This document shows positions 6,823-50,919 of a DNA stretch of 64,000 bases, one piece after another. This stretch comes from Limimaricola variabilis (GTDB lineage Bacteria; Pseudomonadota; Alphaproteobacteria; Rhodobacterales; Rhodobacteraceae). Each line of letters begins with the position of its first letter. Position 1 is the stretch's first letter. The stretch spans positions 62,001-126,000 of the forward strand of contig NZ_JACIBX010000003.1 of the NCBI RefSeq assembly GCF_014195545.1. Reading direction: 5' to 3'. A program made the position numbers and the translations under genes. The notes below the pieces were generated by a model. The model worked only from the letters and a program-made list of their open reading frames with translations. It had not been told where the DNA came from and searched no databases.

Positions 6823-7754
6823 CAGCGGTCCTTGGGATCGAGTGCGTCGCGCAGGCCGTCGCCGACGAAGAAGAAGGCGAACAGCGTGACCACGAAGAAG
6901 AACAGCGGGAAGGCAAGCTGCCAGATCACGCCGTATTGCATGTTGCTCGCGCCATTGGAGATCAGCGCGCCGAGCGAGGTGTTGGGCTCTTGGATGCCGA
7001 GGCCGAGGAAGCTGATGAAGCTCTCGGTGATGATCATCTGCGGCACCAGTAGGGTGGCGTAGACGATGACCAGACCGAGCAGGTTCGGCACGATGTGGCG
7101 CAGGATGATGGTCAGGGGCCGCACGCCGGTGGCGTGCGCCGCCTCGACGAATTCCTTGCCCTTGATGGTCAGGGTCTGGCCGCGCGCGATGCGCGACATG
7201 TCGAGCCAAGAGATCAGTCCGATGCCGATGAACAGCATCAGGATCGATCGGCCGAAGATGACCAGCATCAGGATCAGCACGAACATGTAGGGCACCGACA
7301 TCAGGATATCGACGGTGCGCATCATCGCCCCGTCGGTCCGCCCGCCGGCATAACCCGCGATCGCGCCGTAGAGCGTGCCGACCACCACCGCGACGGCGGC
7401 GCCGACGATGCCGACCAGAAGCGAGATCCGCGTGCCCTGCACGGTGCGCGCATAGAGGTCGCGGCCGCTGGAATCGGTGCCGAAATAGTGGCCCGTCTCC
7501 AACGAGGGCACGCCCTGCGTCGCGTTCGAGCCGATCAGCGCGAAATCGACGTAGTCGGGTTCGTACTGCGCCAGGAAGCCGCCGAAGAAGGCGAAGATGC
7601 AGACCGCGATCAGCGCCACGAGACCGGCGACGGCGGCGCGGTTGCGCATGAAGCGGGTCCGCGCGTCCTGCCACAGCGAGCGGCCCTTCACCTCTGCCGC
7701 GGCATGCGCGTCGAGCAGGCGGTCGGCGGTGTCGGGATCGGGATTGAGCGACAT
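6822..7754 (-). CDS. oppC: Oligopeptide ABC transporter permease OppC
   Basis: This 310-residue inner-membrane permease is of the BPD-transporter family. An N-terminal cytoplasmic tail is followed by a first helix (VAGLVALIAVCIFAFFGGFL), a periplasmic loop with the HYFGTDSSGRDLYARTVQG motif diagnostic of OppC/DppC, and about five further helices. The EAA-type loop is in FVEAAHATGVRPLTIILRHI. The start at MSLNPDPD is supported by a strong GAGGAGGGG site 3-4 bases upstream. Stop and start codons overlap with oppD, so the subunits are translationally coupled. Confidence 0.93.
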   Translation of the reverse strand: MSLNPDPDTADRLLDAHAAAEVKGRSLWQDARTRFMRNRAAVAGLVALIAVCIFAFFGGFLAQYEPDYVDFALIGSNATQGVPSLETGHYFGTDSSGRDLYARTVQGTRISLLVGIVGAAVAVVVGTLYGAIAGYAGGRTDGAMMRTVDILMSVPYMFVLILMLVIFGRSILMLFIGIGLISWLDMSRIARGQTLTIKGKEFVEAAHATGVRPLTIILRHIVPNLLGLVIVYATLLVPQMIITESFISFLGLGIQEPNTSLGALISNGASNMQYGVIWQLAFPLFFFVVTLFAFFFVGDGLRDALDPKDR

Positions 7755-7765
7755 GTGACCCCTCC

Positions 7766-8689
7766 TCAATAACGGATCTTCGGGTCGATCCAGGCGTAGA
7801 GCAGGTCGACCACGAGGTTGAACAGCACCGTCAGCACGCCGACCAGAATGGTGATCCCCATGATCACCGAGTAGTCGCGGTTGAAGGCGGAGTTGACGAA
7901 GAACTGCCCGATCCCACCGGTCGAGAAGAACACGTCGATGATCACCGAGCCGGTGATCATGCCGACGAAGGCGGGCCCGAGATAGGACAGCACCGGCAGC
8001 ATCGTCGGCTTGAGCGCGTGGCGCAGGATGATGCGGCTGGTCGGCAGTCCCTTGGCGCGGGCCGTCCGGATGAAGCCGGCGTTCAGCACCTCGAGCATCG
8101 AGGAGCGGGTGATCCGTGCGATCGAGGCCATGTAGGAAGTCGACAACGCGATCACCGGCAGGATCACGTATTCGATCTGCCCGCCCTGCCAGCCGCCGCC
8201 CGGCAGCCAGCCGAGCCAGAGCGTGAAGACCAGCACCAGGATCGGCGCCATGACGAAGTTCGGCAGAACCTGTGCGCCGATCGAGATGCCGACGGCGAGG
8301 TAGTCGAGCCAGGAATTGTGCCGGATCGCCGCGGCGGCGCCGAGGGAGACGCCGACCACCAGCGCCACGATGAAGCTCCAGAACCCGTAGGTGAGCGTCA
8401 CCGGGAAGCCCTGAGCGATCACGTCGTTGACGGTGCGGTCGCGGTACTGGAAGGAGGGCCCGAAGTCGAAATGCACGACGACGTTCCAGACATAGTCGAA
8501 CATCTGCTTCCAGTAAGGCTGATCAAGACCGTAGCGGGCCTCGATGTTGGCCATCACCTGCGCGGGCAGCGGGCGCTCGGAATTGAACGGGCCGCCGGGG
8601 GCGGCATACATCAGCGCGAAGGAGATCACGATCAGCAGAAGCAGGGTCGGGATCGCGACCGCGACGCGCCTGAGGACATAATTCAGCAT
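7766..8689 (-). CDS. oppB: Oligopeptide ABC transporter permease OppB
   Basis: This 307-residue permease begins MLNYVLRRVAVAIPTLLLL, the typical OppB/DppB first helix, and carries APGGPF near residue 30, characteristic of the oligopeptide-type subfamily. Its EAA loop is IRTARAKGLPTSRIILRHAL. About six membrane helices are visible. It lies 11 bp upstream of oppC and 87 bp downstream of oppA, with a hairpin in the latter gap. Confidence 0.93.
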   Translation of the reverse strand: MLNYVLRRVAVAIPTLLLLIVISFALMYAAPGGPFNSERPLPAQVMANIEARYGLDQPYWKQMFDYVWNVVVHFDFGPSFQYRDRTVNDVIAQGFPVTLTYGFWSFIVALVVGVSLGAAAAIRHNSWLDYLAVGISIGAQVLPNFVMAPILVLVFTLWLGWLPGGGWQGGQIEYVILPVIALSTSYMASIARITRSSMLEVLNAGFIRTARAKGLPTSRIILRHALKPTMLPVLSYLGPAFVGMITGSVIIDVFFSTGGIGQFFVNSAFNRDYSVIMGITILVGVLTVLFNLVVDLLYAWIDPKIRY

Positions 8690-8729
8690 GGGGGATGATA
8701 CCTCGGTTCCGCCTCGGGCGGAAATGGGT

Positions 8730-8757
8730 CGCGCCCCCCGCGAAGGCGGGAGGCGCG
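8730..8757 (-). terminator. Intercistronic hairpin between oppA and oppB
   Basis: A 12-bp GC-rich stem with one G-T wobble encloses a 4-base loop. There is no T-tract. Hairpins of this sort after a binding-protein gene commonly protect the upstream mRNA or attenuate read-through, giving more binding protein than permease. That role is inferred from position only. Confidence 0.5.
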
Positions 8758-8776
8758 ATGATCAATCAGGCCGGGA

Positions 8777-10417
8777 TTACTCCGCGGCGACGCGGTAGAG
8801 GTCCTTGGCGTACCAGTTGTCCTGCGCGTTCTCGAGCGGGTAGCCCTTGATGGCGTCGTCCATCATGAACACCGTCGCGTAGTGGTAGATCGGCAGGATC
8901 GGGAACTCCTGGGTCAGGATCTCCTCGGCCTGGGTGTAGAGCGGCAGCGGATCCTCGGCGGTCTTCGCCTCGGCCAGCAGCCCGTCGTAATCGGCATTGT
9001 TGAAGCCCGAGTCGTTGTAGGACGACCCCGAGTCCATGATGTCGAGGAAGGACGACGCCTCGTTGTAGTCGGCACACCAGCCGGCACGGGCGATCTCGTA
9101 GTTCTTGTTGTGGCGCTCCTCGAGGAAGGTCTGCCACTCCATGTTGGCCATCGAGATCTCGACGCCCAGCGTCTGCTTCCACATCTGGCCGATCGCGGTG
9201 GCCACCTGCTTGTGCGACTCGGAGGTGTTGTAGAGCAGGTCGAAGGAGAGCGGCTCGCCATCCTTGCCGTAACCGGCCTCGGCCAGCAGTTCCTGCGCCT
9301 TGGCGTTGCGCTCCTGCTGGGTCATCTGCGCCGCCTCGACGGCGGGGACTTCGAAGCCAGCGGTGGCCCAGTGGGTCAGGGTGTAGGCCGGCTTCTGGCC
9401 GCCCGCGACGACGTTGTCGACGACCACGTCACGATCGATGGCGAGGTAGAGCGCCTCGCGCACCTTCGGATCCTTGAGCGCCTCGGGACCGGAGTCGGAA
9501 ACGTTCAGGTTGTAGTAGTAGGTGCACAGGTTCGGCACCGAGATCGCCTGCGCGGGATACTCTTCCGCCAGACGCGGGAACTGGCCCGCGGGCACGTCGG
9601 TCTGGTCGAACTCGCCGGCGAGATAGCGGGTCAGCGCCTGGTTCTCGTCGTTGATGATGAGCGCCTTCACCTCTTCGATGATGACGTTCTCGGCGTCCCA
9701 GTACTCGGGGTTCTTCTTGAGCGTGATGTATTCCTGCGGGACGCGATCCTCGAGCACGTAGGCGCCGTTCGACACCATGTTGCCAGGCTGGGTCCAGGCG
9801 TCACCATGCTCTTCGATCACCGACTGCGGCACCGGGAAGGTGGTGGTGTGGGTCACCATCTGCGGGAAGTAGGGCAGCGGCTGCGACAGCGTCACCTCGA
9901 GGGTGTGGTCGTCCACGGCCTTCACGCCGAGCTCGGAGGGCTCCTTGTCGCCGGCGATCACCTCGTCGACATTGGCGATCTTCATCAGGCCCATGTACCA
10001 CTGGTACTCGGAGGCGGTCGCCGGGTCGGCGGCGCGCTGCCAGGAGTAGACGAAGTCCTTCGCGGTCACCGGCTCGCCATTCGACCACTTGGCGTCGTCG
10101 CGCAGGGTGAAGGTATAGGTCATGCCGTCCTCGGAGACCTCGTAGCCGGTGGCCACGCCCGGCACCACTTCGCCCTTCTCGTCCTGGTTCATCAGGCCTT
10201 CGAACAGGTTGCGGCCGATCGCCGAGCCCTCGACATCCTCGATGAGGTTGGGGTCGATCGACGGGAATTCATCGAGCACGCGGTAGGTGAAGGTCTGGTC
10301 TGCGGCGAGCTTCTCCCCGGTCTCGGGGTGCTCCATCATCGCGTGACTCTCGGCATGGGCGGCGCCGGCAATGGCGATCAGCGCCGCACCGGCGAGAAGG
10401 CGGGTCTTCAAGGTCAT
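8777..10417 (-). CDS. oppA: Oligopeptide-binding periplasmic protein OppA
   Basis: This 546-residue periplasmic solute-binding protein belongs to the SBP family 5. The start at 10417 gives a clean signal peptide, MTLKTRLLAGAALIAIAGAAHA, with cleavage after AHA; an upstream in-frame start would add 45 non-conserved residues and bury the signal. The body has the family's EFPSIDPNLIEDVEG beginning, TYTFTLRDDAKWSNGEPVTA, and the OppA/MppA-like segment ending CADYNEASSFLDIMDSG. It is the first gene of oppABCDF and should determine peptide specificity. Confidence 0.93.
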   Translation of the reverse strand: MTLKTRLLAGAALIAIAGAAHAESHAMMEHPETGEKLAADQTFTYRVLDEFPSIDPNLIEDVEGSAIGRNLFEGLMNQDEKGEVVPGVATGYEVSEDGMTYTFTLRDDAKWSNGEPVTAKDFVYSWQRAADPATASEYQWYMGLMKIANVDEVIAGDKEPSELGVKAVDDHTLEVTLSQPLPYFPQMVTHTTTFPVPQSVIEEHGDAWTQPGNMVSNGAYVLEDRVPQEYITLKKNPEYWDAENVIIEEVKALIINDENQALTRYLAGEFDQTDVPAGQFPRLAEEYPAQAISVPNLCTYYYNLNVSDSGPEALKDPKVREALYLAIDRDVVVDNVVAGGQKPAYTLTHWATAGFEVPAVEAAQMTQQERNAKAQELLAEAGYGKDGEPLSFDLLYNTSESHKQVATAIGQMWKQTLGVEISMANMEWQTFLEERHNKNYEIARAGWCADYNEASSFLDIMDSGSSYNDSGFNNADYDGLLAEAKTAEDPLPLYTQAEEILTQEFPILPIYHYATVFMMDDAIKGYPLENAQDNWYAKDLYRVAAE

Positions 10418-10794
10418 GAGGTCATCCCTGTGTCTGAGGCGCGAGAGCTTCGCGCCGGATGGACGTCCGCCCTTTGCGGGCGTGGTTGTGGCACGATCCT
10501 TTTGCGACATGCCGCGCAATGCAAGACTTATCGGCGATTGACCAAGCGACATGGCAGGCGCCGGATTTCCGCAGCGTCAGTCAAGCATCTCGACGGATTG
10601 TTGATTTTCCGCCCCTTGCGAAGGCAGTTGATTGCCGGGGCGCGCCCGTTCCAGCAAGATCGCATCACTCCGGCAGGGTCTCGCTCCGCAAAACGTGACG
10701 ACACGCCCTGCGAAGTTCGCCGCAAAGATGTCGGACGCCCCCTCCCCCCGGCCTGCATGAAAGCATAGGTTCGGGCCCGAAGGAGGCCTTGGCC
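10418..10794. other. Divergent intergenic region, no gene seen
   Basis: These 377 bases separate oppA (minus) from the hemerythrin-like gene (plus) and must hold both promoters. The short open frames here have no recognisable product and biased composition. A strong AGGAGG site at 10781-10786 serves the downstream ATG at 10795. No convincing operator repeat was found. Confidence 0.5.
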
Positions 10795-11379
10795 ATGCCC
10801 GACGATACCCCCGATTCCACCCTCGCCCTCGGTCGGCGCGAGGGCCTGCCGGACGCCCTGCGTGTACTGCTCGATGACTATCCGCGCGCCGGCTGGGAGG
10901 AGGATCCCGGCTTCGACGGGCTGGTGCGGTTCTGGCTGTCGAAGCACCTCGCGTTCCGCGAGATGCTGGCGATCCTCACCCGCGAGACCGAGGCCGCCGC
11001 CGATGGCGCCGATCCGGCCCGTTTCGCGGCCGTGCTGTCCCAGCTGGGCGGGCGGCTCGTCGGTGACCTGCACGGGCATCACGGCATCGAGGATGCGCAT
11101 TACTTTCCGCGCCTCGCACGAATGGAGCCCCGGCTTGAGGCCGGCTTCGCCCTGCTCGACGGCGACCACCACGCGCTGGACGGCCATCTGGAGCGCTTCG
11201 TCGATGCGGCCAACGGGCTGATCGGCCAGGCGTCCGCCCCGGCTCGAATGCGCGGCGAGGCGGCGGGCTTCGCCGAACGGCTGTCGGGCTTCGAGGGCTT
11301 TCTCGACCGCCATCTCGTCGACGAGGAGGAACTGGTGGTGCCAGTCCTGCTTCGCCACGGTACGGGGGCGCTGGGATGA
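10795..11379 (+). CDS. Hemerythrin-like (HHE) domain protein
   Basis: This 194-residue protein resembles hemerythrin HHE cation-binding domain proteins, four-helix bundles that bind a di-iron centre and can sense or carry O2 or NO. Candidate metal ligands are in KHLAFREML, HGHHGIEDAHYFPRL, DGDHHALDGHLERF and DRHLVDEEELVVPVLL. ATG at 10795 is chosen over a TTG at 10789 because AGGAGG lies 8 bases before the ATG. Its stop overlaps the LysR start (ATGA), so it is co-translated with the likely regulator of the formate dehydrogenase operon. A redox or oxygen-related role there is inference. Confidence 0.8.
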   Translation: MPDDTPDSTLALGRREGLPDALRVLLDDYPRAGWEEDPGFDGLVRFWLSKHLAFREMLAILTRETEAAADGADPARFAAVLSQLGGRLVGDLHGHHGIEDAHYFPRLARMEPRLEAGFALLDGDHHALDGHLERFVDAANGLIGQASAPARMRGEAAGFAERLSGFEGFLDRHLVDEEELVVPVLLRHGTGALG

Positions 11380-12260
11380 TCGACAGGCTGGAGATGTTCC
11401 TTGCGCTGGCCAAGGCCAGGCATTTCGGCCGCGCCGCCGAGGCGATGGGCGTGACGCAACCGACGCTCTCGGCCGCGATCCGCCAACTCGAGGATCAGCT
11501 TGGCGTGATGCTGGTGCGGCGCGGCTCGCGCTTTCAGGGGCTGACGCCCGAGGGCGAGCGGGTGCTCGACTGGGCCCGGCGAATCTCCGGCGACGTGCGC
11601 GGTATGAAGGAAGAGCTGCGCGCCGCGCGCGAAGGGCTCACCGGGGTGCTGAGGCTGGCCGTCATCCCCACGGCGCTCGGCGCGGTGGCCCAGCTCACCG
11701 GACGTTTCGCCGCGGCGCATCCGGCGCTGCGCTTCTCCGTGCGTTCGGCCACCACCACTCAGCTTCTCGCCGCGATCGAGGATCACGAAGCCGATGCCGG
11801 GATCGGCTATCTCGACAACGAGCCGCTGGGTCGTGTCGTCACAGTCCCGCTCTATACCGAGCGCTACGTCGCGGTGATGCGGCGCGACGCGTCGCTCGCC
11901 GAGCGGTCGCGGCTGCGCTGGGCCGATCTCGCCGGGGCTGATCTGTGCCTGCTGACGCCCGACATGCAGAACCGCCGGATCATCGCAGGCCACCTCGCCG
12001 CCGCCGGTGTCGCGGCGGAGCCGAGGATCGAGACCAACTCGACCATCGTGCTGATTTCCCACGTGCTGAATTCGGGCTGGATCACCATCCTGCCCGAACG
12101 GGCGGCGGCGATCTTTCTGCAGGGCCAGCCATTGGTCGCGCGGCCGCTTGGCGCGCCCGATGCGGCGCATGAGATCGGGCTGATCGCCCCGTGGCGCGAG
12201 CCGCACACGCCACTGTTGTCGGCGCTGCTGGCCGAGGCGAAGCGCTTCGACCGGGATTGA
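11376..12260 (+). CDS. LysR-family transcriptional regulator, likely of fds operon
   Basis: This 294-residue LysR regulator has an N-terminal winged helix-turn-helix (MFLALAKARHFGRAAEAMG then TQPTLSAAIRQLEDQLG) and a substrate-binding effector domain from about residue 90. It sits directly upstream of fdsG on the same strand, with only 93 bases between and a T-N11-A operator candidate in that gap. LysR regulators next to fds genes are usual in this group. The ligand is not visible; formate is a plausible effector. It overlaps the hemerythrin-like gene by four bases. Confidence 0.88.
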   Translation: MIDRLEMFLALAKARHFGRAAEAMGVTQPTLSAAIRQLEDQLGVMLVRRGSRFQGLTPEGERVLDWARRISGDVRGMKEELRAAREGLTGVLRLAVIPTALGAVAQLTGRFAAAHPALRFSVRSATTTQLLAAIEDHEADAGIGYLDNEPLGRVVTVPLYTERYVAVMRRDASLAERSRLRWADLAGADLCLLTPDMQNRRIIAGHLAAAGVAAEPRIETNSTIVLISHVLNSGWITILPERAAAIFLQGQPLVARPLGAPDAAHEIGLIAPWREPHTPLLSALLAEAKRFDRD

Positions 12261-37311: not shown

Positions 37312-38147
37312 TGCCGCGGCACGAGGCCGAGGACGGGGTCGGGCTGCACTACCTCGACGAGGGCACAGGGCTGCCGGTGCTGTGCCTGCCCGGCCTCACC
37401 CGCAACGCCGCCGATTTCGACCATGTCGCGCCGCATCTGGAGGATGTCCGGCTGATCCGTCCCGACTATCGCGGGCGCGGCAGGTCGGATTGGGCCGACC
37501 CTGCGACCTACACGGTCGCGCAGGAAGCGCGCGACATCCTCGCCCTGATGGATCATCTGGGGCTGGAGCGCGCGGCGATCCTTGGCACCTCGCGCGGCGG
37601 GCTGATCGCGATGGTGCTGGCCGCGACGGCCCGGCCACGGGTGATCGGCGTGGCGCTCAACGATATCGGGCCGGAGATCGCCCCCGCCGGGCTGAAAATC
37701 ATCGAAGGATATCTCGGCCGCCGTCCGGCACAGCGCACATGGGAGGAGGCCGCGCGTTTCCGTGCCAGCGCCTGGACCGGCTTCGAGGGCGTCCCGCACG
37801 CGCGTTGGCTGGCCGAGGTCAGGGGCCAGTACGAGGAAACGCCCGACGGGCTAGAGCTGCGCTACGACCCGCGCCTGCGCGACACGGTGCTGGGCGGCGC
37901 GGTGCAGCCGGCGCCGGATCTCTGGCCGCTGTTCGACGCGCTGGAGGGGCTGCCGCTGGCGCTGATCCGGGGCGCGAACTCGGATCTCCTGACGGCGGCC
38001 ACCGCGGACGAGATGCAGCGCCGCAATCCCGCGATGATCTTTGCCGAGGTGCCGGGACGCGGCCATGTCCCCTTCCTTGACGAGCCGGCGGCGCGCGCGG
38101 CATTGAACGACTGGCTGGCGCGCTGCCGGTCGGTCTGGGGAGAGTGA
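37311..38147 (+). CDS. Alpha/beta hydrolase
   Basis: This 278-residue alpha/beta hydrolase has the oxyanion motif VLCLPGLTRNAADF, a nucleophile serine in ILGTSRGGLIAM and a histidine in PGRGHVPFLDEP. Its substrate is unknown. The ATG at 37311 shares one base with the HAD stop (TGATG); its end overlaps the dehydratase start by four bases, so all are coupled. An esterase or enol-lactonase-type role would fit the operon. Confidence 0.86.
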   Translation: MPRHEAEDGVGLHYLDEGTGLPVLCLPGLTRNAADFDHVAPHLEDVRLIRPDYRGRGRSDWADPATYTVAQEARDILALMDHLGLERAAILGTSRGGLIAMVLAATARPRVIGVALNDIGPEIAPAGLKIIEGYLGRRPAQRTWEEAARFRASAWTGFEGVPHARWLAEVRGQYEETPDGLELRYDPRLRDTVLGGAVQPAPDLWPLFDALEGLPLALIRGANSDLLTAATADEMQRRNPAMIFAEVPGRGHVPFLDEPAARAALNDWLARCRSVWGE

Positions 38148-39124
38148 AGTTGAGCGATATCGAGATGATCCGCGCCGCGCGCGCGCGCATCGCAGGCAAT
38201 CTGCGGCGCACGCCGCTCCTGTCGGCGCCCGCCCTCGACGCGATCGCCGGGCGGCGCGTGCTGCTCAAGGCCGAATGCCTGCAGGTGACTGGATCGTTCA
38301 AGGCGCGCGGCGGCTGGTCGGCGGTCTCGGCGATCGCGCCCGAGGTCCGCGCGCGCGGCGTCATCGCCTTCTCGTCCGGCAACCATGCGCAGGGCGTGGC
38401 CCATGCGGCGCGAGAGCATGGCGTCCCGGCGGTGATCCTGATGCCGCAGGACGCGCCGAAGGCCAAGATCGACGGCACGCGGGCGCTGGGCGCCGAGGTG
38501 GTGCTGTTCGACCGCGAGCGCGACGACCGCGATGCCATGGGCGCGGCGCTGGCCGAGGAGCGCGGGTTGACGCTGATCAAGCCCTTCGACGACGCGCTCG
38601 TCGTCGCAGGACAGGGCACGCTGGGGCTGGAGCTGGCGGAACAGGCGAACGAGCACGGCGTGACCAGCGCCGAGGTGCTGGTCTGCTGCGGTGGCGGCGG
38701 GCTGAGCTCCGGCGTGGCGCTGGCGCTCGAAGCCGAGGCGCCGGGCCTGCGGGTGCGGACCTGCGAGCCCGAGGGCTTCGACGACGTGGCGCGCAGCCTC
38801 GCAGCGGGCGAGATCCGCCGCAACGACCGCCTGTCGGGCTCGATCTGCGACGCCATCGTGACGCCGCAGCCGGGCAACCTCACCTTTCCGATCCTCCGGC
38901 GGCTGTGCGGTCCGGGCCTCGCGGTGAGCGAGGACGAGGTGCTGCGCGCCATGGCGCTGGCCTTCCGCCACCTGCGGGTGGTGATCGAGCCGGGCGGCGC
39001 GGTCTCGCTCGCCGCAGCCCTGTTCCGCCCCGAGGCGCTGACGGGCGAGACGGCGATCGCCGTCGCCACGGGCGGCAACGTCGATGCCGCGCTCTACGCC
39101 CGCGCGCTGAGCACGCTGGAATGA
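38144..39124 (+). CDS. Serine/threonine dehydratase-family PLP enzyme
   Basis: This 326-residue fold-type II PLP enzyme has PLP lysine K53 in QVTGSFKARGG, the phosphate-binding GGGGL of VCCGGGGLSSGVALA and the SSGNHAQGVAHAAREHG segment. The family deaminates threonine, serine or hydroxyamino acids. It uses GTG (38144), in the GTGA overlap with the hydrolase. It lacks the ACT regulatory domain of biosynthetic IlvA, so a catabolic role is more likely. EutB-type hydroxyectoine enzymes are close relatives but no eut genes are adjacent. Confidence 0.87.
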   Translation: MKLSDIEMIRAARARIAGNLRRTPLLSAPALDAIAGRRVLLKAECLQVTGSFKARGGWSAVSAIAPEVRARGVIAFSSGNHAQGVAHAAREHGVPAVILMPQDAPKAKIDGTRALGAEVVLFDRERDDRDAMGAALAEERGLTLIKPFDDALVVAGQGTLGLELAEQANEHGVTSAEVLVCCGGGGLSSGVALALEAEAPGLRVRTCEPEGFDDVARSLAAGEIRRNDRLSGSICDAIVTPQPGNLTFPILRRLCGPGLAVSEDEVLRAMALAFRHLRVVIEPGGAVSLAAALFRPEALTGETAIAVATGGNVDAALYARALSTLE

Positions 39125-41230: not shown

Positions 41231-42538
41231 TCAGCGCTTCAGTCTGGTCGTCTCGTCGAGCATCTCGTCGACGGTGGTCACGATCTTGGCGTTCGAGGAA
41301 TAGGCCCGCTGGGTGCTGATCAGGTCGGTGAGTTCCTGAGCCACCTCGACGTTCGAGCTCTCCAGCGCGCCCGCCGTCAACGATCCCGTGGATCCCTCGC
41401 CTGCCTGGTTGAGGCTGAACTTGCCCGAGGAGCGGGACAGCAGGAAGGCGTTGCCGTCGGCTTTGAGCAGGCCGTCGGGGTTGGCCACCTCGGCCAGCGG
41501 GATGTTGTAGAGCGGCTTGCGGCTTCCATTGTCGAACACGCCATAAACATCGCCGCGCTCGTCGATCTCGGTCCGCACCAGAACCCCGCTCTCGGCGCCG
41601 TCGGCGCTGATCTTGAGCGGCGAGTAGTCGCCCGCGAACTGGGTCATGCCGTCATAGGTCCCCGGCGCGCCGATGTTGATCGCGACATTCTGGGGCACCG
41701 CGCCGTTGTCGATCGTCAGGGTCGCCACGCCGGTCGCGGGGTCGAAGGCGAAGTTTGCAGGCGCGGCGGCGGTGGAGGTGGCGTTCGAATAGAGCCGCGG
41801 CGCCCCTGCCAGCGCGCCGCTGTCATGGAAATCGACCGTGACGCTGCCGTATTGGGTACCATCGGCGCCGTTGAAGCTGAGGGTCCATTGGTTGTCGACC
41901 GCGCCGGGCTGCCAGGAGAACTGCATCCGCTGCGCGGCACCCAACGGGCTATAATACTCCGCCGAGCTCAGGAAGGGCTCGCCCGGTGTTGCCAGGCCGG
42001 TCTGCTGGGCCGGGATGTTGCCGCTGATCGTCATCTCCGCCGTGGGCGAGCCGGTCTGCGACAGGCTGCCGAGGTTGACGGTCTTGAGATCACCGAACTG
42101 GTTGCGGTCGATGTTGCCCAGATTGGCTGTCTGGTCGTAGGGAAAGCCCGCGAGGTAGTAGCCCGCGGCGTTGCGCAGATTGCCGTTCTCGTCGGGCAGG
42201 AAGGAGCCCGCGCGAGTGAGCATGAAGTTCGCCTCGTTGGTCTCGTTCGGCTGCTTGGAGACCACGAAGAAGCCCGGCCCGCCGATCGCGAGATCGGTCG
42301 CCCGCTCGGTGGCGCGCAGCGCGCCCTCGGTCGAAATCTCAGAGCCCTGCACCGCCCGCACGCCAGAGGGCGCCACCGTACCGTTCTGGCTCAGCGTGCT
42401 GGTGGTGACCATCTGCACGAAGCTGCGCCGGTAGCCGTCGGTGTTGGCGTTGGCGATATTCTCCGAAATCCGGCCCACCGCCGTCGAATTCGCCCGCAGA
42501 CCGCTCACGCCGGTCTGCATGGCGTAGGAAATGCTCAT
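41231..42538 (-). CDS. flgE: Flagellar hook protein FlgE-like
   Basis: This 435-residue axial protein has the conserved N-terminal rod/hook motif TGVSGLRANSTAVGRISENI then NANTDGYRR, and a C-terminal D0 helix ELTDLISTQRAYSSNAKIV as in FlgE/F/G. The central region with FlgE-like beta domains makes hook protein the best fit. No other flagellar gene is in the window; it stands alone beside a terminator. It could be a second or displaced hook gene. Confidence 0.85.
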   Translation of the reverse strand: MSISYAMQTGVSGLRANSTAVGRISENIANANTDGYRRSFVQMVTTSTLSQNGTVAPSGVRAVQGSEISTEGALRATERATDLAIGGPGFFVVSKQPNETNEANFMLTRAGSFLPDENGNLRNAAGYYLAGFPYDQTANLGNIDRNQFGDLKTVNLGSLSQTGSPTAEMTISGNIPAQQTGLATPGEPFLSSAEYYSPLGAAQRMQFSWQPGAVDNQWTLSFNGADGTQYGSVTVDFHDSGALAGAPRLYSNATSTAAAPANFAFDPATGVATLTIDNGAVPQNVAINIGAPGTYDGMTQFAGDYSPLKISADGAESGVLVRTEIDERGDVYGVFDNGSRKPLYNIPLAEVANPDGLLKADGNAFLLSRSSGKFSLNQAGEGSTGSLTAGALESSNVEVAQELTDLISTQRAYSSNAKIVTTVDEMLDETTRLKR

Positions 42539-42986: not shown

Positions 42987-45900
42987 TCAAGCCGACACGG
43001 CATCCGCTGCCACGGAGGAGGCGCGGACGTCCGCGTTTGGGCCACTCATCTCTCGGGTTTCGGCCGAGGCTGCGCGTGCCGGGTTCCCGACCCAGCGGGT
43101 CCAATCCTCGACCACCTCTCCCTTGATCAGGAAGCCGCCCGCATCGACCAGCCCCCCGGCGCCCACCCGCGTGTCGTAATGCACCCAGGTCCCAATCCCG
43201 ATCGTCGCGCCCGCACCGACGAGAACGCTTCCGGATTTGAAGGTGCCGTCCTCGAGGGAGTGGCAATGCAGGACCGACCCGATGTTGAAGGTCGAATAGT
43301 CGCCGATCTCGCAAAGCGACTTCTCCGGGGCGTTCATGCCGTCATCGAGAACCCGCCGCCCCACCCGCATGCCCAGCGCGCGCCACAGCAGGGGCTTGAA
43401 CGGCGTGCCGTTGAGCGACGCGCTCAGGCCGGAAATGCCGAGTTTCCAGTAGCGCTCGTGCCACCAGAAATAGCTGTCGTAGATCGAGCAGTAATTGGGT
43501 TCGAGCCGCCGTCCGCGGAGCGCACCCAATTCCCAGGCGATCTGGTAGAGCAGCGTCGCGACGAAGAGGACCGCCATGGTGCAGGCCAGCCCGAAGGGCG
43601 ACGTCAGGCCCAGATCCACCGTCATCATGTGCCCCAGCACCGCGAAGACCACGAACGCGCCCCACCGCGACAGCAGAAAGAGCCCCATTGACTGGATATT
43701 GTGCCGGTTCTTGCGACGCAGCCGTCCGGCCAGCACCGCCGGCGCCTTGTAGCGGTCGAAGCGATGGTCCCGGCGGACCGATCTCGGGATCTCGAAGGCC
43801 GGTGAGCCGAGCAGGCCCGTCTCCCGCCGCCAGGGCCCGTGAACCGGGATATGGGTCTTGGTGCCGATCAGCACGTCCCGCCCGGCCCGGGAGCCGGGGA
43901 GCACGATGGCGGCGTTGCCGAGGAAGTTCTGCTCGGCGAGGCGGATCCGCTTGAGGCGAAAGCAGCCATTGGCGTATTCGGCATTGGCCAGAACCAGCCC
44001 GTCGGAGGCCATCGTCCCGGCACCGACCTCGCAGAGGAACGGCACGTCCTGGCTTTGGCTCATGCCGAAATTGGTGCCGGTGTTGACGACCGTCCCGAAC
44101 CGGTAGCCGAGCGCCTGAAGCCACGGAACGATATAGCTGCTGTCCCCGAACAACTCGTTGTAGAACTTGTTGTTGGCCGCCCCGGCGAGAATCCGGAACA
44201 TCAGGTGATGGATGCCGTAAAGCGGGTAGATCCGGTCCTCCTTCAGGAACAGCCATGCCAGCCGGGGCACCAGCAAGGCGCTCAGCGCCGACAGGATCAT
44301 CCCGACGACGAAGAGCGCCAGCGTGCCGACGAGGATGTAGGGCAGCGCCAGCAGGGTGGACGTCGTATCGGGCAGCGCCACTGGCATCTCCAGCGCCCCC
44401 GACACGAAGGCATAGAGCACCGAGAACAGCGCGAGCCCTATCGGCCCGGCCCAAAAGATCATGGTGGCAACCAGATAGAGGCTGTAGAGCCAGCTTCGCA
44501 GCACCGTGCGGTGCCGCGACCTGAACGGGCGGAACCCCCGTTCGGCGGGCCTCGCCGGGACGCCGACATAGCTGCCCTCCGGCGGCAGGTCCTGCCCCTC
44601 CATCACGGTCGAGACATGGGCGATGTCCGCGCCATTGCCGATCCGTGTTTGGATATCGATCACCGCCCCTTCGCCCACATGAACGTCGCGCCCGATATGC
44701 ACCGGGCCAAGCCGGATGTGCCCGGAGACCGCTTTGTAGCCGGAAAGAAGGACGCCACGATTGATCACCGTACCGGACCCGATGGTGACGAGATCCGCAG
44801 GCACGGGCGGCTTGGAGCGGATCAGCGCGCTCAAGGCCACCTGGGCGCCGAGCAGCCGGAGATGGGCATTGTAGAGCGGCGTGCCGGTCATCAGCGCCAG
44901 CGGCGAGGCGCGCGACAGGGTGCGAAGCAGCCAGAACCGGAAATAGGTCAGCCCCCATGCCGGGAACTCCGTCGCCCGCCAGCGACCGACGAGGAGCCAT
45001 TTCGCCGCCACCGGCAGCGCCGAGAACCCGACAAGCAAGGCGAATGAGACTGCGACGGCGCGCCAGTAGATCCCCGCGATGCCAGCCGCCTCGAAGACGT
45101 AGGTAAGCCCCGCCAACGCGAGTTCGAGGCCGAGCCAGGTATAGAGCAGGCCGAACGCGACCTGACCGGCACCGGTGCCCCAATAGGCCAGCGCGCCGGC
45201 GCGGTGGATATTGTCCTCGCGCCGCTCGATCGGTGCCGGCGCTTGCAGGGATGCAAGCTGGCCCGCCAGTCCCCGGATCGTCGGGTGGCCGTAGACCTCT
45301 CGGATCGACAGCGCCGTGACGCCGAGCTCGGCGCGCGCCCGAGCGGCGAACCGCGCCATCAGCAACGAGTTCGCCCCCATGTCGTCGAAGAAGTGGTCGA
45401 CGACCGACACCTCTTCCAGCCCGAGAACACTGGCGAGGCAACCCGCGAGGGCGAGTTCTAGCTGGTTGCCGGGCGCGACGCAGCCGCGGCCGCCGATGCG
45501 ACGGCTGCGCGGCGGCGGCAGCGCCTTTCGATCCGCCTTGTCGCAGACCAGCATCGGGATCTCTTCGAGGCGTTCGAAGTAGCTCGGGATCATGTAGGCC
45601 GGCAGCCTTGTCCGCAGCGCCGCGACGATCTCCTCGACGGCGGTGTCGCCGGTGAAATAGGCCACCAGTTCGGTCATGTCAGGCTCTGGCGTGAAGACCT
45701 CGACCACCGCCTGGCGGATCCCTTCGATCTGCATGATCGCCGACTCAATCTCCGCCAGTTCGATCCGGTAGCCACGGATCTTCACCTGGGTATCGATCCG
45801 GCCGAGACATACGAGTTCGCCGGTCTCGTCGACGCGGCCCAGATCCCCGGTCCGGTACAATCGGCCGAGCGTGGACGAGGCTTGTCCTGGCTTTATCGGC

Positions 45901-47126
45901 ACGAAAGCCGCTTGGGTCAGGCCGGGCCGGTTCAGATAGCCGCGCGCGACACCGATCCCGCCGATCGCGATCTCACCCGTGCCGCCCCGCTCGACGAAGC
46001 TGCCGGTATCGGGATCCAGGATGCAGGTCCAGTAGGTCGGAAGAGGCACACCGATGGTCACCAGGCGGCCCGGCTGTAGCTCGGCCACGGTGGCGGTGAC
46101 GGTCGCCTCCGTCGGCCCGTAGGCGTTGAGGATCCGCCGCTTCTCACTGTGCCAGCGCGACACGAGATCGGCGGGGCAGCTCTCGCCCGACACGATGAGG
46201 AGACGCAATTCGGACAGTTCTGGCTCGAGCGTCGCCAAGAGCGTCGGCACGCAGCACAGGGCGGTGATGCGCCGCGCGCCGAGGAACGCTTGCAGGTCCT
46301 CCCCCACGAGGCTCGCCCCGGCATCGTTCGGCACCAGCGTTGCCCCTGTGAGCAGCGGCACCCAGACCTCCTCGACCGAAAAATCGAAGGCGAGGGTAAG
46401 CCCCTGATAGACCCGGTCGCCCGGCCGATAGCCATAGATCTCGCCCGCCACGCGGACGAAGTTGACGATCATGGAATGATCGATCGGCACGCCCTTGGGG
46501 CGCCCCGTGGTGCCGGATGTGTAGATCACGTAGGCGAGCGCATCGGAGGCAATCGATGGCCGGTCGGGGCGGGCGACGTCCTGCCGGGCCAGTTCGTCTC
46601 CGAGCATGTCGATGGCGAAGACTGGACCACCTGCGGCCTCGGCCAGACCGGTCCAGGACGCGACCGTCAGGACCGCCTTGATCCCCGCATCCTCGGCGAT
46701 GAAGGCGATGCGGTCAGCCGGAAATCCGGGGTCGAGCGGTGCGTAGGCCGCACCGATCTTGAGCACCGCCAGCAACCCGACGTAGCTCTCCACCGAGCGG
46801 TCGAAGAGCAGGCCCACGACGTCGCCGTCGCCCAGCCCCTGCGACAGCAGGTAACGCGCCAACCGGTTCGCCAGCCGGTCGAGCGCGCCATAGGTGATGA
46901 TGCGGCACTGAGTTTCGACCGCGACCGACGCAGGCATGCGGTCGGCCATACGTTCGAACAGGTGGTGCAGACGCTCGCCCCGGCGCCAGCGGGGCCGGTC
47001 GTCATGGCCTGAGCGCAGCACGAAACGAGCCTTGCCGGCCGCGGCGGCGGGCGCACCATTGGAGCCCTCGGCAGCCAAGTCCGGCTCAACGCGCAGCCGC
47101 GCGACGATGTCGCCATCAGGCGACAT
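42987..47126 (-). CDS. Pls/PosA-type single-module membrane nonribosomal peptide synthetase
   Basis: This 1379-residue protein has, in order: an adenylation domain (about 50-545; YVIYTSGTTGRPKG, LAFDFSVEEVW, NAYGPTEATVTA, RTGDLGR, CDKADRKALP with K530), a carrier domain (about 556-630; pantetheine serine S587 in DDMGANSLL), then membrane helices alternating with three hexapeptide-rich left-handed helix domains (about 780-860, 1030-1095 and 1270-1350). This is the architecture of epsilon-poly-lysine synthetase Pls and PosA. There is no condensation or thioesterase domain. Reading the pocket by alignment to GrsA I get D-F-E-C-I-S-A-V-T-K; the acidic third residue suits a basic side chain. ATG 47126 overlaps the EctB-like gene by 11 bp. 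Substrate L-2,4-diaminobutyrate is inferred from that partner. It is unlikely to be an ordinary NRPS or acyl-CoA ligase. Confidence 0.85.
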   Translation of the reverse strand: MSPDGDIVARLRVEPDLAAEGSNGAPAAAAGKARFVLRSGHDDRPRWRRGERLHHLFERMADRMPASVAVETQCRIITYGALDRLANRLARYLLSQGLGDGDVVGLLFDRSVESYVGLLAVLKIGAAYAPLDPGFPADRIAFIAEDAGIKAVLTVASWTGLAEAAGGPVFAIDMLGDELARQDVARPDRPSIASDALAYVIYTSGTTGRPKGVPIDHSMIVNFVRVAGEIYGYRPGDRVYQGLTLAFDFSVEEVWVPLLTGATLVPNDAGASLVGEDLQAFLGARRITALCCVPTLLATLEPELSELRLLIVSGESCPADLVSRWHSEKRRILNAYGPTEATVTATVAELQPGRLVTIGVPLPTYWTCILDPDTGSFVERGGTGEIAIGGIGVARGYLNRPGLTQAAFVPIKPGQASSTLGRLYRTGDLGRVDETGELVCLGRIDTQVKIRGYRIELAEIESAIMQIEGIRQAVVEVFTPEPDMTELVAYFTGDTAVEEIVAALRTRLPAYMIPSYFERLEEIPMLVCDKADRKALPPPRSRRIGGRGCVAPGNQLELALAGCLASVLGLEEVSVVDHFFDDMGANSLLMARFAARARAELGVTALSIREVYGHPTIRGLAGQLASLQAPAPIERREDNIHRAGALAYWGTGAGQVAFGLLYTWLGLELALAGLTYVFEAAGIAGIYWRAVAVSFALLVGFSALPVAAKWLLVGRWRATEFPAWGLTYFRFWLLRTLSRASPLALMTGTPLYNAHLRLLGAQVALSALIRSKPPVPADLVTIGSGTVINRGVLLSGYKAVSGHIRLGPVHIGRDVHVGEGAVIDIQTRIGNGADIAHVSTVMEGQDLPPEGSYVGVPARPAERGFRPFRSRHRTVLRSWLYSLYLVATMIFWAGPIGLALFSVLYAFVSGALEMPVALPDTTSTLLALPYILVGTLALFVVGMILSALSALLVPRLAWLFLKEDRIYPLYGIHHLMFRILAGAANNKFYNELFGDSSYIVPWLQALGYRFGTVVNTGTNFGMSQSQDVPFLCEVGAGTMASDGLVLANAEYANGCFRLKRIRLAEQNFLGNAAIVLPGSRAGRDVLIGTKTHIPVHGPWRRETGLLGSPAFEIPRSVRRDHRFDRYKAPAVLAGRLRRKNRHNIQSMGLFLLSRWGAFVVFAVLGHMMTVDLGLTSPFGLACTMAVLFVATLLYQIAWELGALRGRRLEPNYCSIYDSYFWWHERYWKLGISGLSASLNGTPFKPLLWRALGMRVGRRVLDDGMNAPEKSLCEIGDYSTFNIGSVLHCHSLEDGTFKSGSVLVGAGATIGIGTWVHYDTRVGAGGLVDAGGFLIKGEVVEDWTRWVGNPARAASAETREMSGPNADVRASSVAADAVSA

Positions 47127-48393
47127 TCCGGCAGCTTTGGCCAGAGGTCACGTCGACCGCTTCGGCTAGGATCCCCAGGCCTTCGTCGAGCTGCGCGAGT
47201 GGTGTCGTCAGCGGCGCGAAGACCTTCAGCACCTCGTCGCGTGGCCCCGCCCTCTCGATGATGAGACCGCGTTCATAAGCGGCGCCGCAGATCGCCGCCG
47301 CCCGTTCGGCGTCGACGCAGAGCAGCCCCTGCATCATGCCGATCCCCTTCTGCCCCGCGAATACCCCGGGGTGATCCTCCGCGATCCCTGCGAGGGCCTC
47401 ATGGACCCGCTTGGCCTTCCGGGCGATCTCAAGTTCGAAGGTGTCGTCGCGCCAGAACAGATCGAGCGCGGCCCGGGCGGTGACGAAGGCGAGGTTGTTG
47501 CCCCGGAAGGTGCCGTTATGCTCGCCCGGCTCCCACTGATCGAGATCCCGGCGGATCAGCACGATCGACATCGGCAGCCCGGAACCCGATAGGGATTTCG
47601 AAAGGGTGACGATGTCGGGCACGATGCCGGACCGCTCGAAGGAGAAGAAGCCGCCGGACCGCCCGCAACCGGCCTGGATGTCGTCGACGATCAGCAGAAC
47701 CCCATGGGCGCGGCAGACGCGTGACAGGTTGCGCAGCCAGTCTGCCCGCGCAACGTTGAGCCCCCCTTCGCCCTGGACGCATTCGACGATCACGGCGGCA
47801 GGCCAATCGAAGCCCGATGAGGGATCGCAGAGCAGCGCCTCGAAATAGGCCGTCGTGTCGACATCGGGCCCGAGATACCCGTCATAGGGCAACAGCGCCC
47901 CACCCGGCAGCGGCAGACCCGCCCCCCGCCGATGCGCGGCATTGCCGGTCGCCGCGAGCGCGCCGAGCGTCATGCCGTGGAACCCGTTGGTAAAGGCGGC
48001 GATTGTGGTGCGACCGGTCACCTTCCTTGCGATCTTCATCGCCGCCTCGACGGCGTTGGTGCCGGTCGGGCCGGTGAACTGCACGACATGATCGAGCCCG
48101 CAGCGCGACATCGCGGTTTCCGCGAAGGTGGAGAGAAACGCCGCCTTGGCCTCGGTGTGCAAATCGAGGCTCATGGCGATGCCGTCCTTCGAGATGTACT
48201 CGACCAGCGCGGCGGTCAGGGCCGGATGGTTGTGGCCGTAATTCAGCGCCCCGGCCCCCGCCAGGAAGTCCAGGCGGCGCACGCCCTCCACGTCCCAGAT
48301 TTCGCTGCCACTGGCTTTCGAGAAGAGGGCGGGAAACGATCGACAATAGGAGGCGACCGAAGACTCCATTTCGTTGAAAATCGAGTTCTCCAT
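47116..48393 (-). CDS. EctB-like L-2,4-diaminobutyrate aminotransferase
   Basis: This 425-residue class III PLP aminotransferase is very like EctB: MESSVASYCRSFPALFSKA, DFLAGAGALNYGHNHP, VQFTGPTGTNAVEAAMKIAR, DVDTTAYFEALLCDPSSG and GEHNGTFRGNNLAFVTARAA all follow the EctB pattern. K266 (LSKSLSG) is the PLP lysine and D237/D238 hold the pyridine ring. EctB converts aspartate semialdehyde and glutamate to L-2,4-diaminobutyrate. Neither ectA nor ectC is adjacent; instead the Pls-like synthetase follows with an 11-bp overlap, so the amino acid is probably made for that enzyme. AGG lies before the ATG. Confidence 0.88.
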   Translation of the reverse strand: MENSIFNEMESSVASYCRSFPALFSKASGSEIWDVEGVRRLDFLAGAGALNYGHNHPALTAALVEYISKDGIAMSLDLHTEAKAAFLSTFAETAMSRCGLDHVVQFTGPTGTNAVEAAMKIARKVTGRTTIAAFTNGFHGMTLGALAATGNAAHRRGAGLPLPGGALLPYDGYLGPDVDTTAYFEALLCDPSSGFDWPAAVIVECVQGEGGLNVARADWLRNLSRVCRAHGVLLIVDDIQAGCGRSGGFFSFERSGIVPDIVTLSKSLSGSGLPMSIVLIRRDLDQWEPGEHNGTFRGNNLAFVTARAALDLFWRDDTFELEIARKAKRVHEALAGIAEDHPGVFAGQKGIGMMQGLLCVDAERAAAICGAAYERGLIIERAGPRDEVLKVFAPLTTPLAQLDEGLGILAEAVDVTSGQSCRNVA

Positions 48394-48958
48394 AACACCT
48401 CACAGGATAAAAACGGCACAAGTCATCCGCCCGATTTTCGGCAAGCCGGGGTGCAGGAAAACTCAAACGCATTTCTGCGCTGCCCAGAGGGAATGCCCCG
48501 AATGATTATTCAGAGCCGACAAGATCTCAATGATATCAGAAGCTCGTAGCGCCGCAATCAGACGAACTATTTAGCAACCGATCTATTGATCGAAGCTATC
48601 AAACGTGCCGCCTGCCCAAAACGGCATTCGGAGTTCCAGTATCACGAAGATCGAGCGGCCGACTGCCCCAATTTTAATCAATTCAGTCGATCCCTTAGAC
48701 CGTACACCGCGAATACTTTCTCATTTCGTCAGCTTCGAGTTGAATATCGGAAGGGAGATATCAGCATTCGAATTCGCTGCCTTTAAGAAATTGCCCGGAA
48801 AATTCCCGGCAAGGTCTCGGCCCTGACCACTTCGCAAGACCGCCATCCGAAGAACCTGTCTCTGCACTGGCGGCGCCAGAAGCGGCCTGCTCTCCGGACA
48901 TGCCCCTAATCACCGGGACCCGGAAGCTGCGGCAAGCGCTTGGAAGCAAATCGGATTG
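48394..48958. other. AT-richer regulatory region upstream of the EctB/Pls unit
   Basis: From about 48450 to 48790 base composition drops to roughly half G+C, far below the surrounding GC-rich DNA. It contains the palindromes TGATATCA (48531-48538) and CGATC-N4-GATCG (48579-48592). Short open frames here encode nothing recognisable. It ends at the 3' end of the tRNA-Arg gene. It likely holds the promoter of the EctB/Pls unit, and its composition suggests transfer. Confidence 0.5.
48503..48530 (-). promoter_or_regulatory. Candidate sigma-70 promoter for the EctB/Pls unit
   Basis: On the minus strand TTGAGA and TAATCA are separated by 16 bases, about 110 bp upstream of the aminotransferase start. 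The boxes match the consensus only partly. Confidence 0.25.
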
Positions 48959-49035
48959 TGGCGATCCCACGAGGACTCGAACCCCGAACCTGCTGATTAG
49001 AAGTCAGCTGCTCTATCCAGTTGAGCTATGGGACC
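48959..49035 (-). tRNA. tRNA-Arg (anticodon TCT)
   Basis: The minus strand folds as a full cloverleaf of 77 bases: acceptor GGTCCCA with TGGGATC (one G-T pair), discriminator G and encoded CCA, anticodon stem GCTGA/TCAGC with loop CTTCTAA giving anticodon TCT (reads AGA/AGG), and T-arm with GGTTCGAGTCC. The 3' end faces the EctB/Pls unit. Confidence 0.95.
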
Positions 49036-49314: not shown

Positions 49315-50637
49315 TCAATCGAGCCGGTCGAGGATGTCGGCCAGCCGGTCGAACAGCCCGTCGACCTGCGCCTCGGTGATGATGAAGGGCGGCGACAGCG
49401 CGATGATGTCACCCGTCACGCGGATCATCAGCCCCTCCTCCCAAGCCAGCTTCATCGCCTGCCAGCCTCGCGCACCCGGTGCGCCGGGACGGCTTTCCAG
49501 CTCGATCGCGCCGACAAGGCCGAGATTGCGGATATCGGCGACATGCGGCCGTCCCCGCAACTCGTGCAGCGCGTTCTCCCATTTCGGCGCCAACGCCTCG
49601 ACACGGGCGAACATCTCGTTCGCGCGGTAGCTCTCGAGCGTTGCCAGCGCCGCGGCCACCGCCAGCGGATGCGCCGAGTAGGTATAGCCGTGGAACAGCT
49701 CGATCGGGGTGTCGGCGCGCTCCATCGCGGAGGCGTAGATCTCGCGGCTGACCGCCACCGCGCCCATCGGCACCACGCCGTTGGTCAGCCCCTTGGCGGT
49801 CGCGATGATGTCGGGCGTCACGCCGAAATACTCGGCCGCCGTCATCTTGCCCAGACGGCCATAGCCGGTGATCACCTCGTCGAAGATGAGCAGGATGCCG
49901 TGCCGGTCGCAGATCTCGCGCAGCCGCGCGAGATATCCCTTCGGCGGCAGCAGCACGCCGGTCGATCCTGCCATCGGCTCGACGATGACGGCGGCGATGG
50001 TCGAAGGGTCGTGCAGCGCGCAGAGCCTTTCCAGATCCTCGGCCAGCTCCACCCCGTGCTCGGGGCAGCCGCGCGAGAAGGCGTTGCGCGCCGGGTCATG
50101 AGTGTGCCGCAGGTGGTCGACGCCGTTGAGCAGCGTGCCGAAATGCCGGCGGTTGTTCACGATGCCACCCACCGAGATGCCGCCGAAACCGGTGCCGTGG
50201 TAGCCCCGCTCACGGCCGATCAGCCGGGTCCGCGCCCCGTCACCGCGCATGCGGTGGTAGTGCAGCGCGATCTTGAGCGCGGTGTCGACCGACTCCGAGC
50301 CGGAGTTGGTATAGAAGACATGGTCGAGCCCCTCGGGGAACAGGCCCGCGAGCCGGGTCGACAATTCGAAGGCCTGCGGCGTGCCGAAGTTGAAATGCGG
50401 GGCATAGTCGAGCGTGGCGACTTGCCGTTGCACCGCTTCGACGATCAGCGGATCGTTGTGGCCGGCATTGACGCACCACAGCCCCGCGGTGGCGTCGAGG
50501 ATCTGCCGCCCGTCATCACTGGTGTAATACATGCCGTCGGCCGCCACGATCAGCCGCGGATCGGCGGCAAAGTCGCGGTTCGGCGTGAACGGCATCCAGA
50601 AGCTGGAGGCGTCGTTGATCTTGGCGTGTCGGCTCAC
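49315..50637 (-). CDS. Class III aminotransferase, omega-amino acid:pyruvate type
   Basis: This 440-residue PLP enzyme is close to beta-alanine/omega-amino acid:pyruvate aminotransferases: FWMPFTPNRDFAADPRLI, GLWCVNAGHNDP, HVFYTNSGSESVDTALKIA and YHGTGFGGISVGG are characteristic. K282 (ATAKGLTNG) is the PLP lysine and D253 (IFDEVITGYG) the ring ligand. GTG at 50637 follows an AGGGAGG site with six bases between; no ATG is better placed. It lies upstream of the tRNA-Arg on the same strand. Whether it serves the diaminobutyrate unit is unknown. Confidence 0.88.
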   Translation of the reverse strand: MSRHAKINDASSFWMPFTPNRDFAADPRLIVAADGMYYTSDDGRQILDATAGLWCVNAGHNDPLIVEAVQRQVATLDYAPHFNFGTPQAFELSTRLAGLFPEGLDHVFYTNSGSESVDTALKIALHYHRMRGDGARTRLIGRERGYHGTGFGGISVGGIVNNRRHFGTLLNGVDHLRHTHDPARNAFSRGCPEHGVELAEDLERLCALHDPSTIAAVIVEPMAGSTGVLLPPKGYLARLREICDRHGILLIFDEVITGYGRLGKMTAAEYFGVTPDIIATAKGLTNGVVPMGAVAVSREIYASAMERADTPIELFHGYTYSAHPLAVAAALATLESYRANEMFARVEALAPKWENALHELRGRPHVADIRNLGLVGAIELESRPGAPGARGWQAMKLAWEEGLMIRVTGDIIALSPPFIITEAQVDGLFDRLADILDRLD

Positions 50638-50919
50638 GGCTGGCCTCCCTCTGGCGATGCTGGGCCCAGTTTGCACCGCGCGCGCCTACGGACAATCCCG
50701 CATCTGCGCACGCGATGCACTTGTGTGGCCGGGCCCGCCGCTGGAAACGTCCTTTCAACATTTCAACCCCCGCCCCCGATAGTCGACACGCTCCGTGCAT
50801 ACGGCTTGACCGGAACAGCACGGGACGCGGCCGGTTGATCCAACGGACCGGGGCCGACATCCGGTGGGTCGAGAAGCCCCTCGGCCCCGGCGCTCCGGTT
50901 GTGGGAGGGAGGACCGTTT

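Follow-up and report, generated by a model that had tools for sequence, protein, structure and literature searches.

The window analysed here is a stretch of 64,000 nucleotides from the alphaproteobacterium Limimaricola variabilis (contig NZ_JACIBX010000003.1), and our subject is a pair of overlapping genes on its minus strand, an EctB-class transaminase gene followed by a synthetase gene of the Pls/PosA family. We argue that the pair is probably a pathway to a polymer of L-2,4-diaminobutyrate (Dab). An earlier note on this DNA had described an EctB-like gene overlapping a 1379-residue synthetase by 11 bp, and both the coordinates and the junction sequence agree exactly with that description. 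Such an overlap would imply translational coupling of the two genes. The parts of the pair, with the basis for each, are as follows.

47116-48393, minus strand: EctB-class L-2,4-diaminobutyrate:2-oxoglutarate transaminase, 425 aa (open reading frame and TIGR02407)
42987-47126, minus strand: Pls/PosA-family single-module homopolymer synthetase (predicted), 1379 aa (open reading frame, Pfam and TIGR02353)
47116-47126, minus strand: 11-bp gene overlap (open reading frame coordinates and junction sequence)
45552-47000, minus strand: adenylation domain, about residues 43-525 (Pfam and alignment)
45261-45449, minus strand: carrier (PP-binding) domain, residues 560-622 (Pfam)
42990-45206, minus strand: predicted terminal polymerisation domain, residues 641-1379 (NCBIfam, hydropathy, motif runs and model)

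The synthetase scores 554.7 bits against TIGR02353, the 'Pls/PosA family' model (cut-off 423.1), over residues 662-1350 and profile positions 13-695 of 695, and 405.8 bits against the adenylation model TIGR01733 (cut-off 317.4). Pfam places AMP-binding at residues 57-398 and PP-binding at 560-622 and returns no Condensation match in the protein, in keeping with the single module of adenylation and carrier domains that had been proposed. The carrier-domain serine, Ser587, is invariant in 11 of 11 aligned rows, and the genome holds two matches to phosphopantetheinyl transferases. Membrane helices and three hexapeptide domains had also been described at the C-terminal end. Hydropathy marks three helix pairs, or six membrane helices, in the terminal domain, although the same threshold also flags residues 558-576 in the carrier domain, a false positive. 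Hexapeptide repeats have no Pfam match in the synthetase, and the three beta-helical blocks are assigned from motif runs and from the C-terminal 739 residues as modelled with AlphaFold2. This model, made from an input alignment of 23 sequences (own included), has a mean predicted local distance difference test (pLDDT) score of 85.4 and a predicted template modelling (pTM) score of 0.86, and it predicts long helices in three pairs, with a beta-helical block after each pair. A Foldseek search of the PDB gave hexapeptide-repeat acetyltransferases as top matches, each covering part of the model and with TMq at most 0.17 among the matches listed.

The transaminase scores 592.1 bits against TIGR02407 (ectB, NCBIfam), over the equivalog cut-off of 552.2, and its nearest solved chains are the diaminobutyrate-2-oxoglutarate transaminases 9s1q, 9s1p and 6rl5. 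Lys266 aligns with a lysine of 9s1q that is read as alanine in 9s1p, is invariant in 9 of 9 aligned homologues, and is likely the pyridoxal phosphate lysine of the window enzyme. EctB-class enzymes yield Dab, not L-2,3-diaminopropionate (Dap). The window transaminase is the only EctB over the cut-off in its genome, and a search of this genome for the ectoine synthase EctC found none. As this search had been made without a positive control, it was repeated on 15 genomes, where EctC was matched in 7 and the window's genome again gave no match. An ectoine operon was considered for the window gene and ruled out on this ground, no EctC having been found in the genome. In three relatives that carry the pair, G024, G039 and G198, EctC is present together with two EctBs, one adjoining EctC and the other adjoining the synthetase. 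The window enzyme resembles ectoine-operon EctBs such as PDB 6rl5 in being over the TIGR02407 cut-off and in its aligned lysine, but differs from them in the lack of a detected EctC and in lying on a branch apart from the ectoine-operon EctBs found in the same family. The missing EctC and the paralogous EctBs of the relatives support a role outside ectoine synthesis.

The adenylation pocket provides insight into the probable substrate. The ten-residue code was read by alignment to the window's motifs, at positions that we take to follow the GrsA motifs, and in the window it is DFECISAVTK. Asp and Glu stand at positions 1 and 3, as in the Pls and PosA synthetases; the Glu falls at the place of PosA Glu221 and the Phe at the place of PosA Met218. 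For Pls (PDB 7wew) the alignment gives DAESIGTVVK, also read in Pls-like loci, with small Ala and Gly residues in place of the window's Phe and Ser. The code in print for PosA is DMEHNGTVSK (PMC10522769), so that position 2 is Phe in the window, Ala in Pls and Met in PosA. This position has been proposed to set chain length, with Ala for Lys, Met for Orn and Phe for poly-Dap or poly-Dab (PMC10522769), and the window falls in the last of these groups. The window's code is common to L031, L032 and L034, while L154 reads DFECLSAVTK, and DFECLSVVTK occurs in L156, L159, L073, L196, L197 and L201.

This pocket type is mostly found with a Dab transaminase at its side. The pairing test drew on 97 loci, which held 56 frames with an adenylation domain followed by a terminal domain, 51 of them with a full code; L040, L042, L060, L097 and L102 were dropped for want of one. 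A Dab transaminase lay within 3 kb or was fused in 8 of 10 DFEC[I/L]S frames versus 0 of 41 others, the 41 being for the most part loci with little flank. Among loci flanked by 1.5 kb or more on both sides, the transaminase was adjacent or fused in 8/8 DFEC[I/L]S loci versus 0/13 with other codes. Leaving out the window itself, as well as L156 and L159 because they had been fetched via EctB hits, and adding ten plasmid loci gave 7/8 versus 0/20 (Fisher p = 6.8e-6, a value that overstates the evidence because the loci are related by descent). More independent support than the p-value comes from the two types of transaminase and from a fusion. The DFEC[I/L]S synthetases are partnered both by EctB (TIGR02407) and by DAT (TIGR00709), the latter in two loci. 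In Geminicoccus harenae (L073) a DAT-type transaminase over the TIGR00709 cut-off takes the place of EctB. Pseudonocardia xinjiangensis (G206) combines an EctB pair (L156) with a fusion, in which a single frame of 2253 codons (L159:4460-11218) encodes a DFECLSVVTK synthetase and then, across an Ala/Pro-rich linker, a DAT-type transaminase that is also over the TIGR00709 cut-off. The frame was taken from stop to stop, so its first few hundred codons are probably untranslated.

The pair recurs in other genomes, and a search of alphaproteobacteria for it had been proposed. Over the cut-off, the TIGR02353 terminal domain was found in 3 of 198 genomes of the family (own included), and the other two, G024 and G039, carry the pair. 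At E<=1e-80 it was found in 2 of 390 genomes of the order (own included), the other being G751, also with the pair. At class level it was over the cut-off in 10 of 385 genomes (own included); the nine others showed no EctB-like frame in the fetched stretches, some of which stop at contig ends, and one of the class loci (L173) has a frame of 3474 codons from which no code was obtained. Named genomes, when scanned, contributed 52 loci. One of these, from an alphaproteobacterial metagenome-assembled genome (L034), also has the pair, with an EctB 65% identical to the window's. Ten of 30 listed plasmid records were examined, and in Skermanella rosea pSR-1 and S. mucosa pSM-2 a gene annotated as ectB immediately precedes a Pls/PosA gene; at the other eight plasmid loci there was no Dab transaminase within about 6 kb on either side. 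The Skermanella genes have the same order and strand as in the window and the code DFECLSVVTK, but are separated by 131 and 143 bp where the window has its 11-bp overlap, and are followed by a hypothetical protein, an S41 peptidase and a porin. Since the pair recurs in other genomes, its arrangement is not due to chance.

Phylogenies add detail to this distribution. In an EctB tree of 44 rows, the EctBs that adjoin a synthetase in the window, G039 and G198 group together (100/97), apart from the copies that these genomes have in ectoine operons. That of G024 groups with Pseudonocardia's (94/90), and the one of G751 sits on a long branch whose placement is unsure. The label 'synthetase-linked' needs four changes on this tree, three of them forced by starred branches, and a single origin is therefore not shown. 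A synthetase tree of 37 rows, made with a quick method, places ten paired loci inside one set of 16 rows (support 98, starred). Nested in this set is a plasmid clade from Shinella, Phyllobacterium, Aureimonas and Rhizobium, which has the code DFEALGTVTK and is sister to the paired L154. No EctB was found near these loci (L198, L199, L200, L202 and L203; the Rhizobium is R. rhizoryzae), and the annotated neighbours at L198-L200 are a phosphopantetheinyl transferase and/or an acetyltransferase, the records of L202 and L203 being unannotated there. The missing partner and the changed pocket thus coincide on the tree.

The pocket code, the pairing counts, the missing EctC, the paralogous EctBs and the natural fusion together point to Dab as the monomer. 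The earlier note had proposed that the pair makes gamma-poly-Dab, and the same evidence favours that pathway, the product itself being a prediction from sequence. We give a probability of about 0.82 to the reading that the pair is a minimal operon in which the EctB-class enzyme makes L-Dab and the synthetase polymerises it to gamma-poly-Dab with free alpha-amines. The transaminase would move the amino group of glutamate to L-aspartate-4-semialdehyde, an intermediate of the lysine/threonine pathway, to give L-2,4-diaminobutyrate, and this conversion of aspartate semialdehyde is established for the EctB family. Domain chemistry and the pocket suggest that the adenylation domain would then activate Dab as its adenylate, with the conserved Asp holding the alpha-amine, the Glu holding the side-chain amine and the Phe at position 2 shortening the pocket, and that the carrier domain would take up Dab on its phosphopantetheine arm. 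If it works as in Pls and PosA, the membrane-bound beta-helical domain may join units repeatedly through the side-chain amine to yield gamma-poly-Dab. The Dab monomer, the isopeptide linkage, the homopolymer and any secretion are in this sense predicted features.

The closest described parallel is Streptoalloteichus hindustanus, in which poly-D-Dab is made by the synthetase PddA with the transaminase PddC (PMC8225329). The combination of a poly-Dab synthetase and its own Dab transaminase is thus already known in that species, and the PddA-PddD system shares with the window a single-module, membrane-bound Dab synthetase like those of nonribosomal peptide synthesis, encoded together with a diaminobutyrate-2-oxoglutarate transaminase. 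The likeness is drawn from the published description, and the window pair differs in consisting of two genes, in its alphaproteobacterial host and in its expected L-Dab. A DapF-like racemase of the PddB type was not seen coupled to the window synthetase, the next recognised features being a flagellar gene and a tRNA, and a wider motif scan for such a racemase, made without a positive control, found nothing. With no racemase gene recognised beside the pair, L-Dab is likelier than D-Dab, unlike in the PddA system. An aspartate kinase of the PddD type was absent from the seven neighbours searched with Pfam, the rest of the genome not having been searched. PosA of Acinetobacter baumannii, which makes delta-poly-L-ornithine, has the same order of adenylation, carrier and terminal domains and the same pocket Asp and Glu, and its terminal region is predicted as a three-fold beta-helix domain with six membrane helices (PMC10522769), in agreement with the window model. 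Its substrate, ornithine, and its pocket differ from those of the window, and the words ectoine and aminotransferase are absent from the main text of that paper. Pls, which makes epsilon-poly-L-lysine, has the same architecture and belongs to the same family, but lysine requires no dedicated supply gene.

Cationic isopeptide polymers are known chiefly from soil actinobacteria. Before PosA, none had been reported outside the actinobacteria (PMC10522769), clusters for epsilon-poly-lysine are described from actinobacterial species only (PMC12067966), and the natural role of such polymers is regarded as largely unclear (PMC9606270). The titles and abstract openings listed by searches of an open-licence library showed neither an ectB and Pls-type pair nor a proteobacterial poly-Dab, which is weak evidence of novelty. 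Both genes are already public as annotations in the two Skermanella records, where they carry no joint interpretation. What is notable in the window pair is its two-gene form, its host and the link between code and partner. That link is a rule that could predict the Dab-using members of a large synthetase family, and two genes that bring along the supply of their monomer, in a Gram-negative host, would be a testable and movable source of gamma-poly-Dab. A broader picture can be offered tentatively, at somewhat less than even odds: a self-contained two-gene gamma-poly-L-Dab system may move between alphaproteobacteria and actinobacteria, with a supply enzyme drawn from two or more transaminase families and once fused to the synthetase, a hint that Dab is passed on directly. 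The rhizobial lineage, whose pocket has gone from DFEC-S to DFEA-G and which lacks the partner, may in this picture be a natural experiment in polymer specificity.

Several observations weigh against the gamma-poly-Dab reading. Homologues of poly-Dap and poly-Dab synthetases are hard to tell apart by alignment (PMC10522769), and for this reason the pocket alone is no proof of Dab over Dap. A bona fide PddA pocket is also missing from the codes compared, none having been recovered from a hunt through 249 genomes of the family to which a relative from Amycolatopsis belongs. That hunt returned 30 loci, of which 24 read DAESIGTVVK, two have a deviant adenylation domain and four have none in the fetched stretch, and a neighbour scan for DapF-like motifs, run without a positive control, found none in any locus. 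In S. albulus PD-1, the poly-Dap synthetase has an adenylation domain that activates not only Dap but also, to a weaker degree, Dab (PMC4668381). A synthetase in the window that prefers Dap and makes a poly-Dap-like polymer, with an EctB that serves elsewhere or has changed its reaction, is the alternative to which we give most weight, but it is an unlikely one. The Dab-yielding chemistry of EctB-class enzymes runs counter to it, as does the presence of two different types of Dab transaminase beside DFEC[I/L]S synthetases. Among the seven neighbours and a second transaminase searched with Pfam, one has a Dap-synthesis fold, a PALP enzyme at 38144-39124, but it lies 3.9 kb off on the opposite strand.

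Other difficulties concern the pairing and its reach. The terminal domain is rare in both the family and the class, shared descent inflates the Fisher test, and no gene for an exporter or for self-protection was recognised among the seven neighbours, three of which match nothing in Pfam. The exception in the 7/8 count is Paenarthrobacter aurescens pTC1, whose synthetase reads DFECLSVVTK with no transaminase within 6 kb, and two Catenulispora synthetases (DFECLSVVSK) are likewise without one, on contigs that end less than 200 bases downstream. A pair split between contigs was looked for in Catenulispora, and the end of the synthetase contig shows no overlap with the contig starting with a transaminase. 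The pTC1 case, and the wide occurrence of EctB genes apart from such pairs (an EctB is present in 29 of 100 genomes of the family and in 123 plasmid records), would suit an explanation by chance neighbours, in which EctB makes Dab for another use and the synthetase takes a different basic amino acid, for instance ornithine or arginine. This is very improbable, given the failure to find EctC in the window's genome and a pairing that recurs in EctB lineages apart in the tree, tracks the code and exists as a fusion. It is also conceivable that Dab is activated but that the enzyme makes only short oligomers, or moves single Dab units to a lipid, polysaccharide or other acceptor such as a protein; we rate this as improbable, a shade below the Dap alternative and above that of chance neighbours. 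The modelled terminal domain does resemble acyltransferases, Pls also esterifies its polymer with added alcohols (PMC9606270) and the product of PosA in vitro has 7-12 units (PMC10522769). Against transfer of this kind, the members of the architecture characterised in the studies cited make homopolymers (PMC10522769, PMC8225329, PMC4668381), and the window's terminal domain is complete across the TIGR02353 profile. The gamma-poly-Dab pathway is thus preferred over all three.

The two-gene segment is bounded by the following features.

48959-49035, minus strand: tRNA-Arg (TCT), upstream of the pair
41231-42538: flagellar hook-type gene (Pfam)

The tRNA was the sole match in an Rfam search, and a scan for promoters and terminators gave no excess over shuffled sequence. 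GC content falls to 0.57 in 48000-48999. Together, the tRNA-Arg and the GC drop raise a suspicion of tRNA-linked insertion of the pair. Congeners were compared for an empty site, anchored on the omega-aminotransferase gene that lies past the tRNA, and their matches to it were 61-65% identical. None of six other window flanking genes was found in the fetched congener stretches and no empty site was demonstrated; this identity and the lack of the other flanking genes indicate that the anchor matches are probably another copy. A second class-III transaminase lies just past the tRNA at 49315-50676 and scores 721 against the AptA omega-aminotransferase model (cut-off 500), and no tie was found between it and the gene pair.

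Other relatives of the synthetase were seen in passing. At many actinobacterial loci among L038-L079 (Geodermatophilus, Arthrobacter, Pseudonocardia and others), a TIGR02353 domain stands in a frame without a readable adenylation domain and is followed by a second frame with the code DIWQSTANHK or one near it. In L039, for example, domain searches give carrier and terminal domains at 5857-8868 and adenylation and carrier domains with a weak partial Condensation match at 8607-11399, the layout of a bipartite relative of Pls. L040 (from the same Pseudonocardia genome as the fusion), L042, L060, L097 and L102 have a related pocket core, with a code that lacks the last catalytic lysine position, and in the first three the C-terminal part of the adenylation domain looks shortened. 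These lysine-less synthetases are possibly remnants, or enzymes served in trans. Finally, L155 (G067:C28) has a second, divergent EctB close to an adenylation domain of the nonribosomal peptide synthetase type with the code DVEIMGVIV-. The fetched stretch of 10 kb contains no EctC, and this EctB perhaps belongs to another Dab-using pathway.

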